From positions 1 through 64,000 of the forward strand of contig NZ_ASGZ01000021.1 of NCBI RefSeq assembly GCF_000495475.1: 64,000 nt of DNA. The letters run 5' to 3'. The notes under the pieces are model-generated. The model ran no database searches. It was not told where the DNA came from and worked only from the letters and a program-made list of their open reading frames with translations. The stretch is from Candidatus Halobonum tyrrellensis G22 (GTDB taxonomy: Archaea; Halobacteriota; Halobacteria; Halobacteriales; Haloferacaceae). Positions 51,541-55,477 of this stretch are shown here, one piece after another; the first letter of the stretch is position 1; every line of letters begins with the position of its first letter. Both the position numbers and the translations under genes were made by a program.

Positions 51541-52407
51541 TCAGACCACCACGAGCCAGCCGAGGAACACCGCGAGGCCGCCGAGGGCGGTGCTGGCGAC
51601 GGCGTGTGCGCGCATCCGGTCTAACACCGCGTGGGCGTCGGCGTCCTCGTGGTTCCCCTCGATCGACTCGTGGATCTCGGAGCCGATCTCACACTCGGGG
51701 AGGAAGTCCATCGCGACGTGGAGGAAGACGCCGGCGGCGAAGCCGAACACGACGCCCCGGACCGGATCGGAGGCGGGCAGCGGGAGGAACGACGCCGCGA
51801 CGGCGGCGACGCCGACGCCCGCCGCGGGCAGGAGGACCGCCCGCCAGTCGCCGCCGTCGCCGACGAACCGGTTCGCGGCGGCGTAGCCCGCGGGACCCTT
51901 GTGCGAGACGATGGCAAGCCCGAGTAGCGGGCCGAGCGTCATGTTGCCGTAGATGACGCCGATGATCGCGCCCGCCGACACCGCGTGGGCCGTCAGTTCC
52001 GCGAGCGTCCGGTCGACCGGCAGGTCCATGTGTGCCAGTCGGTGGCCGAGGGTGTGGGTCGCGAACCCGACGAGCAGGCCGAGCGCGACGCCGAGCCCGC
52101 CGTACTGCATGTGCTGTCCGAGCGCCTGCGGGAGCAGGAACACCGCGGCGCTGGTCACCATCGCGCCGCTGGCGAGGCCGTACCCCCACACCAGCCGCCG
52201 GGCGTGCTCGCGGGAGGCGCGCGCGCCCAGCCACGCCGCCGCCCCCATCCCGACGAACGCGGTCCACGCGACGCCGAACAGCGTCGTCCGGCCGGTCCAC
52301 AGCGCGAGCGCGCCCGCGACCACCATCGCCGCGACGCTCCCCGCGCCGAGGTAGGCCGCCCGCCTGCGGTTGTTAACCCCCGAAAATGCGTTAATAACCT
52401 CGCTCAC
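51541..52407 (-). CDS. ZIP family divalent metal transporter
   Basis: A 288-residue transporter with eight predicted helices. The metal-binding helices are LTAHAVSAGAIIGVIYGN ... LAIVSHKGPAGYA and FGFAAGVFLHVAMDFLPECE, which carry the conserved His/Asp/Glu of the ZIP family. The start is GTG at 52407. The transcript is probably leaderless, as GTTATTAAC in position -22 to -30 acts as an A/T-rich box. A series of four such nonamers spans the start region, suggesting metal-dependent control. Substrate (Zn, Fe or Mn) not determinable. Confidence 0.85.
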   Translation of the reverse strand: MSEVINAFSGVNNRRRAAYLGAGSVAAMVVAGALALWTGRTTLFGVAWTAFVGMGAAAWLGARASREHARRLVWGYGLASGAMVTSAAVFLLPQALGQHMQYGGLGVALGLLVGFATHTLGHRLAHMDLPVDRTLAELTAHAVSAGAIIGVIYGNMTLGPLLGLAIVSHKGPAGYAAANRFVGDGGDWRAVLLPAAGVGVAAVAASFLPLPASDPVRGVVFGFAAGVFLHVAMDFLPECEIGSEIHESIEGNHEDADAHAVLDRMRAHAVASTALGGLAVFLGWLVVV

Positions 52408-52437
52408 GTTACTAACGAACGCTCCAATGTTAATAAC
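52369..52437 (-). promoter_or_regulatory. Four-site operator array at the ZIP gene start
   Basis: Nonamers GTTGTTAAC (52369), GTTAATAAC (52390), GTTACTAAC (52408) and GTTAATAAC (52429), read on the forward strand, are spaced 21, 18 and 21 bases apart. All are variants of the near-palindrome GTTANTAAC. Two lie within the coding start and two upstream. Spacing of about two helical turns suits dimers on one DNA face, as for a metal-sensing repressor. Confidence 0.7.
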
Positions 52438-52458: not shown

Positions 52459-53979
52459 TCAGGGGAACACCTCGACTGAGACCCAGCCGGTCGCGCCGCG
52501 GGGATAGGCGGACCGCTCCTCGCGGGGCTGGACGGTGCCGTCGGCCTCGACGGCGCGGGCGACGACTTCGTGGTTGGTCTCGCTGTCGTACTCGTGGCGC
52601 CACATCCGCCAGGCGTCGTCCGCCTCGCCGCCGATGTCGGCGGGGTCGGCGTCGGCGGCCACCGCGCCGGGGAGCGGCGCCGACAGGTCCGCCTCGGTCC
52701 ACGTCTCGCCGCCGTCGGTCGACACCTCGACGGCGGAGACGCCGCGGGTGCCCGCGTAGGCGTGCCCGCCGACGACGACCGAGTCGCCGCTCGTGTCCGT
52801 GGCGTGGATCTTGGCAACGGTCGACACCGGGCCGGTGCCGTGCCAGCCCTGCTTTTCCCAGTAGCCCGTCGCCGGCTCCTCCAGGATCTCGATCTCCGTC
52901 AGCCACTTGACGTTGATCTCCCCCCAGTGGCCCGGGATCAGCGCCCGGACGGGGTAGCCGTGCCCGCGCGGCAGGTCGAGCCCGTTCATCCCGTACGCGA
53001 GGAAGCCGCCGTCGAGCGCTTCGAGCGGGAACTCCTCGTAGTAGCCGTCGTCCGCGCGGAGCATCACGCAACAGCCCTCCTCGGCGTCGACGCCCGCCTC
53101 CTCGACCAGATCCGTGATCGGGACCCCGGTCCAGAGCGCGTTGTCGGTCTTCCGGCCGTTGACCGGGTCGCCGACACAGCGCAGCGAGACGAACCGGTGG
53201 TGGGCGGGCCGGCCGGCGATGTCGGCGAAGTCGAACTCCGTCGGCTCCTCGACGGCGCCGGTGACCCGCAGCGACCACGACTCGCGGTTCACGCGCGGGT
53301 TCGCGGAGTTCTTGTCCACCTCGTAGAAACTGCTCGACACCAACCCCTCGACGCCGGGGACGGCCAGCGAGCGCTCCTCGGCGGTCGATAACAGCGCCTC
53401 CACCAGCGGGTCGTCGACCGTCGCGTCGGTGTCGGGACCCGCGCCGCCCGACCCCATCCCGTCGCGGACGCCGAGCACGCCCGCCAGCCCGAGCGTCCCC
53501 GCGGCGACGCCCGCCGAGCGGAGCAGGTTCCGCCGCGGTACGTCCAGCCCCTCGGTCATCTCCCGGCCGCCGAGACCGGCGACGAGTCCGCCGCAGACCC
53601 CACCGACCAGCGACGGCAGCGGCGCGACCGTGAGCGCGAACGCGGCGGCCGTCTGGACGACGCCGACGGCGAACACCGACTCGCCGCGCGTCCGCGCGAG
53701 CGACCGCGTCACCCGGAGGGTCCCGACCGCGAGCAGGGCGAACAGCGCGACGGTCAGGGCGCCGCCGCCCGCGAGCAACAGCGGCTGGCCCGCGTCGCCC
53801 AGCCCCTGTATCCCGGCCGCGAGCACGGCGTTCGGGAGGAGGTACAGCACCGTCTGCGCGACGCCGACGGCGACCCACCGAGGGGTGAACCCGGTGACGA
53901 GGAACGCCCCCGCCACGACGGCGACCCCGGAGGCGAGGGCGACGAGCGCGCGACGTGGCGTCGGACGAGTCGTATCCAT
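52459..53979 (-). CDS. Molybdopterin-dependent oxidoreductase (sulfite oxidase family) with membrane part
   Basis: A 506-residue protein. Residues 15-140 contain four to five membrane helices. Then comes a sulfite-oxidase-type molybdopterin domain with FYEVDKNSANPRVNRESWSL. The molybdenum-ligating Cys lies in SLRCVGDPVNG (about 268). Further on are YPVRALIPGHWGEINVKWLT and a dimerisation domain with SAVEVSTDGGETW. The ending is VSVEVFP. The catalytic part is probably outside the membrane; this is inferred from the hydrophobic N-terminus and similar haloarchaeal proteins. A longer frame upstream was not used because MDTTRPTPRRALV is the first credible start. Confidence 0.86.
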   Translation of the reverse strand: MDTTRPTPRRALVALASGVAVVAGAFLVTGFTPRWVAVGVAQTVLYLLPNAVLAAGIQGLGDAGQPLLLAGGGALTVALFALLAVGTLRVTRSLARTRGESVFAVGVVQTAAAFALTVAPLPSLVGGVCGGLVAGLGGREMTEGLDVPRRNLLRSAGVAAGTLGLAGVLGVRDGMGSGGAGPDTDATVDDPLVEALLSTAEERSLAVPGVEGLVSSSFYEVDKNSANPRVNRESWSLRVTGAVEEPTEFDFADIAGRPAHHRFVSLRCVGDPVNGRKTDNALWTGVPITDLVEEAGVDAEEGCCVMLRADDGYYEEFPLEALDGGFLAYGMNGLDLPRGHGYPVRALIPGHWGEINVKWLTEIEILEEPATGYWEKQGWHGTGPVSTVAKIHATDTSGDSVVVGGHAYAGTRGVSAVEVSTDGGETWTEADLSAPLPGAVAADADPADIGGEADDAWRMWRHEYDSETNHEVVARAVEADGTVQPREERSAYPRGATGWVSVEVFP

Positions 53980-54191
53980 CGACAGCGGTTGGGGGCGAGG
54001 AGGCAAAGCCGTGGCCCGGGTTCGCACGCCCCGCACACACGCGATCGGACCTCCGCAATCGGCTCTACGTCCGTACCCCGAGCTACGTCCGTGATTGGAT
54101 CTATCCGCGACCGGGACCCGTGCCCCCGGTCGGCGCGGGCTGTCGAGTCGCGCGACCGAAGCCTCAAGACGGCCGGGCGGGACGGGACGGT

Positions 54192-54392
54192 ATGGCCGAC
54201 GCCGACGGGGAGGGGGACGCGGGTCGCGACGCCGACGCGGGGACGGGCAGCGGCGGGGACCCGGGCGTCGAGACGGTCGCGGGTCGACCGTGCCCGTACT
54301 GTGGCGCGTCGATGCGGCACGTCCACTGCGAGTACGTCTGCCCCGCCCACGGCGTGGTGATGGACTGCTCGGACACGTTCTTCCACCGGTAG
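54192..54392 (+). CDS. HVO_2523-family zinc finger protein
   Basis: A 66-residue protein. An acidic, Gly/Asp-rich N-terminal half is followed by RPCPYCGASMRHVHCEYVCP and AHGVVMDCSDTFFHR. CPYCG...C...CP...C with a closing HR is the signature of a small zinc-finger family named after the Haloferax protein HVO_2523. It probably works in regulation or nucleic acid binding. It diverges from the molybdopterin gene and is followed by crtB. Confidence 0.8.
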   Translation: MADADGEGDAGRDADAGTGSGGDPGVETVAGRPCPYCGASMRHVHCEYVCPAHGVVMDCSDTFFHR

Positions 54393-54523
54393 CTCCGGCG
54401 ACGCGTTCGCCGAACCCGCCCCCGAGGGTGGTACCAACTGTTATGGTGGCGGCCGTCGTAATACTGCTACTATATGCCCGGAGGGAACCGGACGGGACCA
54501 GCGACGGCGGCGACTGACCCGCC

Positions 54524-55477
54524 ATGGTGAACGACGAGCAGGTCATCCGGAGCAAGCGCATCCAACAGCGGACGGGGCGGACGTTCCACTTCGCGACGCG
54601 GCTGCTGCCCCAGCGGGTGCGCCACCCGACGTACGTCCTCTACGCGTTCTTCCGCGTCGCCGACGAGGTGGTCGACGCCGCCGACACCGCGCCGCCGGTC
54701 GAACAGCGCGCCGAACTCGACCGGCTCAGGGACGCCGCGCTCGGGCGGACGCCGACGGACGACGCGGTGTTGGCCGCCTTCTCGGAGATGCGCGAGGAGT
54801 TCGACATCGCCGACGCCGACGTGGAGACGTTTATCGACGCGATGGAGTCGGACATCGACACCGACCGCTACGAGACGTACGAGGAGCTGGAGGCGTACAT
54901 GGACGGCTCCGCGGCGGCCGTGGGCCGGATGATGACCGCCGTGATGGACCCCGTCGACCCGGAGGCCGCGCTGTCGCACGCGACGGCGCTCGGCGAGGCG
55001 TTCCAGCTGACCAACTTCCTCCGCGACGTCCGCGAGGACGTCGTCGAGCGCGACCGGGTGTACCTCCCGCTGGAGACGCTCTCGGAGTACGGCGTCACCG
55101 AACAGCAGGTGCTCGACTTGGAGTTCGACGACGGCGTCGCCGACGCGATACGCCACGAGACCAGACGCGCCGAGTCGCTGTACAAGGAGGGTGTCGCCGG
55201 CATCGAGTACCTCCCCGAGGACTGCCAGTTCTCGGTGCTGCTCGCGGCGGTGCTGTACGCCGAACACCACGCGCTGATCCGCGACCGCGGGTACGACACG
55301 CTGTCGGCGACGCCCCAACTCGGCACCGTCCGGAAGGTGACGCTGCTCGCGAAGACCCGGTGGGCGTGGTTCCGGACGAAGGACCCCGAGGCCGTCTTCC
55401 GTCGGGTGAGCTGCGTCCCGCACGGCGACCACTCGTACGGCGGCTCCGGCCACGGCGAGCGCGCGCCCGTCCGGTGA
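54524..55477 (+). CDS. crtB: Phytoene synthase
   Basis: CrtB joins two geranylgeranyl diphosphates to phytoene, the first committed carotenoid step. The 317-residue product has the first Asp motif in FFRVADEVVDAADTA and the second in LTNFLRDVREDVVERDRVYL, which bind Mg2+-diphosphate. The C-terminus carries the usual basic stretch. Just upstream is a 24-codon hydrophobic frame (54443-54517) and CTATATG near 54468, a possible TATA box. It is divergent from the other carotenoid genes. Confidence 0.92.
   Translation: MVNDEQVIRSKRIQQRTGRTFHFATRLLPQRVRHPTYVLYAFFRVADEVVDAADTAPPVEQRAELDRLRDAALGRTPTDDAVLAAFSEMREEFDIADADVETFIDAMESDIDTDRYETYEELEAYMDGSAAAVGRMMTAVMDPVDPEAALSHATALGEAFQLTNFLRDVREDVVERDRVYLPLETLSEYGVTEQQVLDLEFDDGVADAIRHETRRAESLYKEGVAGIEYLPEDCQFSVLLAAVLYAEHHALIRDRGYDTLSATPQLGTVRKVTLLAKTRWAWFRTKDPEAVFRRVSCVPHGDHSYGGSGHGERAPVR

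Follow-up and report, generated by a model that had tools for sequence, protein, structure and literature searches.

The window analysed here is a 64-kb stretch of DNA (64,000 nucleotides) from a haloarchaeal genome with 65% G+C (3.68 Mb in 72 contigs, 99.6% complete). On its reverse strand, a gene with a GTG start (51541–52407) encodes a 288-residue protein that we identify as a ZIP-fold divalent-metal transporter from Pfam, AlphaFold, and Foldseek. The match to the Pfam Zip family (9.2e-06) is under the gathering score. The AlphaFold model has a pLDDT of 75, and all 10 Foldseek matches in the PDB at E ≤ 0.001 are bacterial ZIP structures (6e-05 to 6e-04). Since these are the only significant PDB matches, the ZIP name stands despite the sub-threshold Pfam score. 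Upstream lies a co-oriented gene for a molybdopterin (sulfite-oxidase-like) protein (52459–54561, reverse strand, start putative), the stop codon of which is 51 bp before the GTG of ZIP. Positions 52459–55477 of the window hold this molybdopterin oxidoreductase gene and a phytoene synthase gene, and a phytoene-desaturase-like gene is found near ZIP in 41 relatives.

Four nonamers, all read on the reverse strand, surround the start of the ZIP gene. Nonamer 1 (GTTATTAAC, 52429–52437) is a half-site at the TATA position, and nonamer 2 (GTTAGTAAC, 52408–52416) is a half-site directly 5′ of the start codon. Nonamers 3 (GTTATTAAC, 52390–52398) and 4 (GTTAACAAC, 52369–52377) are half-sites within the ZIP coding sequence. 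The starts at 52369, 52390, 52408, and 52429 and the GTG at 52407–52405 agree with the earlier note, which described sites at spacings of 21, 18, and 21 bases straddling the GTG, two of them inside the coding region. On the forward strand, three of the four are exact copies of GTTANTAAC and the fourth is GTTGTTAAC (GTTAACAAC on the gene strand); the consensus common to all four is GTTNNNAAC. The note had called this A/T pattern striking for such a GC-rich genome, and the counts bear this out. The window contains three copies of GTTANTAAC where 0.11 are expected, and two of the pair GTTNNNAAC-N12-GTTNNNAAC, for which the expectation is 0.00 and 100 dinucleotide shuffles yield no copy. Counted from the GTG, the uppermost nonamer spans about −22 to −30, which fits the TATA box of a haloarchaeal leaderless mRNA, as the note had placed it.

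On the gene strand, the nonamers resolve into two tandem copies of a dyad, GTTATTAAC-N12-GTTNNNAAC, 39 bp apart. They are better described as pairs, giving two 30-bp boxes rather than four single sites. The outer box (box A, GTTATTAAC-N12-GTTAGTAAC, 52408–52437, reverse strand) overlaps the presumed TATA box, and its last base adjoins the GTG. The inner box (box B, GTTATTAAC-N12-GTTAACAAC, 52369–52398, reverse strand) lies within ZIP codons 4–13. For scoring, we use a matrix trained on 57 non-redundant ZIP promoters of the Haloferacaceae. The core of the box, TTATTA-N16-TRNYAA, spans 28 bp, the nonamer centres are 21 bp apart, and the two halves of the matrix are mirror images. When the window is scanned with a leave-one-out matrix, the outer box is the top position (32.0), the inner box scores 28.3 on the forward and 26.7 on the reverse strand, and the best unrelated position scores 13.5. 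With a symmetric matrix, the two boxes are about equal (outer 30.6, inner 31.2).

The box is conserved at the ZIP start. Among 171 genomes of one family, identified as Haloferacaceae from the mappable genus names, 106 have the ZIP gene. The exact pair TTATTAAY-N12-GTTNNNAAY has 42 matches in the 171 genomes, 38 of them at the ZIP start; the reversed pattern, used as a control, has six matches of any kind. Strict GTTANTAAC pairs occur in one relative only. In the promoter alignment, the second half-site varies as GTTNNNAAC, and the box of most ZIP orthologs ends immediately 5′ of the ATG or GTG. Comparison of homologous ZIP upstream regions, the check suggested in the earlier note, finds at least one box in 147 of 149 loci overall. 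In other haloarchaeal families, the whole 3–4 kb of each of 41 ZIP loci was scanned on both strands with the ZIP-trained matrix. These loci, none motif-selected, include Halobacterium salinarum, Haloarcula, Halorussus, Halorientalis, Halosimplex, Halomarina, and Halalkalicoccus. The top position is the ZIP start in 41 of 41 (one was scored as distant by the script solely because the protein match starts at residue 69), with a margin over the second-best position of mostly more than 15 bits. Another, more distantly related ZIP type, found mostly in genus g21 (loci L092, L093, L124–L130, and L134–L136), also has a box, which does not abut the start codon.

The position of the box relative to the start codon differs among lineages. 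In Haloarcula, Halorientalis, and Halosimplex, it lies just 3′ of the ATG. The outer box occupies the same location in the ZIP orthologs of Halobaculum. Measured from the conserved part of the protein, the inner box aligns with the only promoter box that most other genera have. An extra box upstream, together with a start 13 codons earlier, therefore appears to have been acquired by the window gene and its relatives in Halobaculum. This alignment, and the fact that the copy equivalent to the inner box is decayed or absent in Halobaculum, would also suit a reading in which a 39-bp tandem duplication left the inner box as a functionless remnant of the old promoter and only the outer box works. 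We regard this as rather unlikely, because the inner box scores as high as the outer one although it encodes a disordered tail, and because two boxes 31–40 bases apart (commonest spacing, 36) are kept in 25 of the 149 ZIP loci. Residues 1–12 of the ZIP protein are disordered in the AlphaFold model (pLDDT < 50), and the N-terminal stretch encoded by the inner box varies freely among relatives, which makes it hard to explain this box by constraint on the protein.

The earlier note also looked to further genomic copies of the site, especially before other metal genes. Such copies exist in relatives, before znuA, CbiM-type, and other genes, but in this genome there are none besides those at ZIP. 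Here, a profile of the box matches only the ZIP promoter, a search for the pair with up to two mismatches returns ZIP and one stray, and no znuA is detected at the threshold used. In the 171 genomes, four exact matches fall outside ZIP, one of them a stray. Of the other three, one precedes a znuA gene, another precedes a gene for a His-rich lipoprotein that is the first gene of a znuA-znuC-znuB operon, and the third precedes a P-loop gene, which is clustered with znuACB, a nikR-like gene, and genes for His-rich lipoproteins and CobW-type GTPases. The chance exact match (G151) was set aside, as were three stray profile matches that have no metal gene (G012, G068, and G004). The P-loop protein (L207:8709-9443), with a perfect box upstream, has no Pfam match and carries the sequence CNCTYHDGH close to its C-terminus; it is possibly a new metal chaperone.

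The ZIP-trained matrix extends these targets to the zinc ABC importer. In 20 znuA loci of 18–20 kb each, selected without reference to the motif (three of them, L254–L256, partly for nikR proximity, with the motif ignored), the best score is at the znu start in 20 of 20. The 17 znuA loci picked regardless of nikR (320 kb) each contain exactly one match with a score of at least 19, always at the znu start. The scans of the znuA loci, the nikR loci, the 41 ZIP loci, and the 320 kb are independent, since the matrix was trained on ZIP only. Profile R1 was built with znuA and nikR-linked boxes included, so its search of the 171 genomes is not independent for those targets. On this sequence evidence, we take the box for an operator conserved at divalent-metal uptake genes throughout the Halobacteria. 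A metal-sensing repressor probably binds to it, an interpretation with good support.

The sole regulator family that recurs in znu neighbourhoods is NikR-like. Its proteins have RHH_1 (PF01402) and NikR_C (PF08753) domains and keep the metal ligands H, HxH, and C in an alignment to Pyrococcus NikR (2bj1), the architecture and ligands expected of a NikR. Among the NCBIfam NikR equivalogs, one matches just above its cut-off (83.6 vs 83) and the others fall below theirs. This genome has a NikR-like gene (G000:C68:66911). Such genes are present in 165 of the 171 genomes and are so widespread that co-occurrence cannot single them out. A nikR-like gene adjoins ZIP in Halonotius (g13) and lies 6–9 kb from ZIP, with znuA just past, in Haloprofundus (g18). 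Among 30 nikR-like loci picked by NikR homology, 19, several of them close relatives, have a strong box within 3.4 kb, while the 320 kb of control sequence has no strong box outside znu. The box-bearing genes at the nikR-like loci encode ZIP, CbiM-type cobalt/nickel transporters, and NMT1-like binding proteins. Because CbiM is among these targets, cobalt and nickel are indicated as much as zinc. Linkage is sparser from the side of znuA: a nikR-like gene is found in only 2 of the 17 znuA loci picked regardless of nikR (L248 and L249).

Autoregulation of nikR through an identical box is borne out only in part. A box lies at the start of one nikR-like gene itself (L163), a clear exception, and another lies before a nikR paralog (L186). 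The nikR-like promoters (L144–L200) instead have a conserved element that resembles the ZIP box without being identical to it. This element, TTAATA-N16-TTRNTAY, abuts the ATG, is accompanied by AA at −34/−33, and has its half-sites one base further apart than the ZIP box; it probably serves autoregulation and is related to that box. Several genomes contain 4–11 nikR-like copies, and in some (including L254 and L255) four paralogs with 25–89% identity are clustered near znuA, which suggests that the family has expanded. A recurrent neighbour of nikR-like genes is an NMT1-like ABC substrate-binding lipoprotein, which bears a box (L152, L154, L157, L159, L161, L162, L164, and L167–L171) and could be a so far overlooked component of nickel or cobalt import.

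Bacterial Zur boxes precede znuABC and zupT, and the Zur regulon comprises the zinc ABC importer, ZIP, and CobW/COG0523 GTPases. The targets of the haloarchaeal box are of the same kind; the dyad differs in being longer, with two separate half-sites. A Zur/Fur box presupposes a FUR-family protein, and no match to PF01475 was found in this genome, for which Fur or Zur is therefore rejected as the binder. A search of 60 genomes returned only partial matches to the family (21–28 bits), none full-length. In the literature, we find nothing specific on a haloarchaeal ZIP regulator or NikR/zinc regulator. The small RNA s479 controls znuA1C1B1 in Haloferax volcanii and thus also regulates haloarchaeal zinc uptake genes, but it acts post-transcriptionally on one operon, whereas the box is a DNA operator common to ZIP and znu (PMC8155600).

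The design of the box resembles that of bacterial NikR operators. The E. coli operator is GTATGA-N16-TCATAC (PMC7055735), and that of delta-proteobacteria is GTGTTAC-[N13/14]-GTAACAC, an inverted repeat of 27–28 bp (PMC545781). Like the haloarchaeal box, they are inverted repeats of 27–28 bp in metal-importer promoters, with half-sites two helical turns apart, and nikR often adjoins the target (PMC7055735, PMC545781). The box matches the size of a NikR operator, about 28 bp with half-sites about 22 bp apart centre to centre. Its half-sites do not match GTATGA or GTGTTAC, and GTTNNNAAC is only partly like GTGTTAC/GTAACAC. The NikR half-site differs between lineages (PMC545781), so this mismatch makes membership in the known operator class less likely but leaves the claim that the box works alike. 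In addition, the haloarchaeal half-site GTTNNNAAC is itself palindromic, ZIP and znuABC, not nikABCDE, are the chief targets, and the boxes occur in tandem and overlap coding sequence. Since half-sites 21 bp apart are two helical turns apart, one two-headed protein, such as a tetramer, could grip both on one face, a geometry that suits a NikR tetramer.

The box might instead be a metal-uptake operator whose binder is of the DtxR/MntR or ArsR/SmtB type, or a haloarchaeal protein not yet described and encoded at another locus. In favour of this reading, several metal regulators of the DtxR type occur in haloarchaea, the majority of znuA and ZIP loci lack a regulator next to them, and the nikR genes' own promoters have a different motif. 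We judge a binder other than NikR improbable, because the nikR-like gene is the only recurring regulator at znu and is repeatedly linked to the box, and Fur/Zur is absent from the search of this genome, with partial matches elsewhere. The dyad of about 28–30 bp with 21-bp spacing likewise fits the design of a NikR operator (PMC7055735, PMC545781). A NikR-like protein is most likely the binder. Far less probable is that the sites are mere core promoter elements (a TATA box and a −10/initiator region) of a strong leaderless promoter, even though in most genera the first half-site coincides with the TATA position and the second covers −1 to −9. General elements are expected at many genes, whereas the box is restricted to ZIP, znu, and nikR-linked transporters in the 171 genomes; the inner box is in coding sequence 3′ of the start, as is the box after the ATG in Haloarcula and Halorientalis; and the half-sites of the matrix mirror each other. 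A chance A/T-rich pattern in GC-rich DNA, for which short length alone speaks, is practically negligible given the shuffle expectation of 0.00 for the pair and refuted by class-wide conservation at orthologous starts.

We consider it fairly probable that the four nonamers form a tandem operator of divalent-metal uptake for a putative repressor, with the NikR-like protein as the leading candidate. The metal sensed is most likely zinc, as ZIP and Znu indicate; cobalt or nickel is possible in view of CbiM and CobW. As follows from established knowledge, a protein that covers the TATA box and the start would exclude TBP/TFB and the polymerase. When metal is plentiful, the metal-loaded repressor would bind the outer box and cover the TATA box and the transcription start, so that TBP/TFB and RNA polymerase would be excluded; the ZIP mRNA is probably leaderless, beginning on or close to the GTG. 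The block would be reinforced by a second repressor bound 39 bp further downstream, on the inner box. When metal is scarce, the repressor would leave and the importer would be made. That the outer box lies over the TATA position and the start is consistent with such occlusion, and the proposal in the earlier note that a bound repressor would block the basal factors is supported. The dyad as the unit, its tandem duplication, its reach across haloarchaea, the other metal-uptake targets, and the candidate regulator are additions to that note.

We propose tentatively, with slightly less than even confidence, that a haloarchaeal NikR-family protein took over the job of Zur. It would repress the uptake of zinc, and perhaps cobalt, throughout the class by way of operators that are often tandem and lie over both the TATA box and the first codons; their translated part would form the variable N-terminus of the importer. 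A class-wide box, a named candidate, and a short list of targets make the control of haloarchaeal zinc uptake directly accessible to experiment in Haloferax volcanii, Halobacterium salinarum, and other tractable species. The locus would also provide a clear example from archaea of an operator lying across the TATA box, the transcription start, and the coding sequence, with a translated operator arising by tandem duplication.
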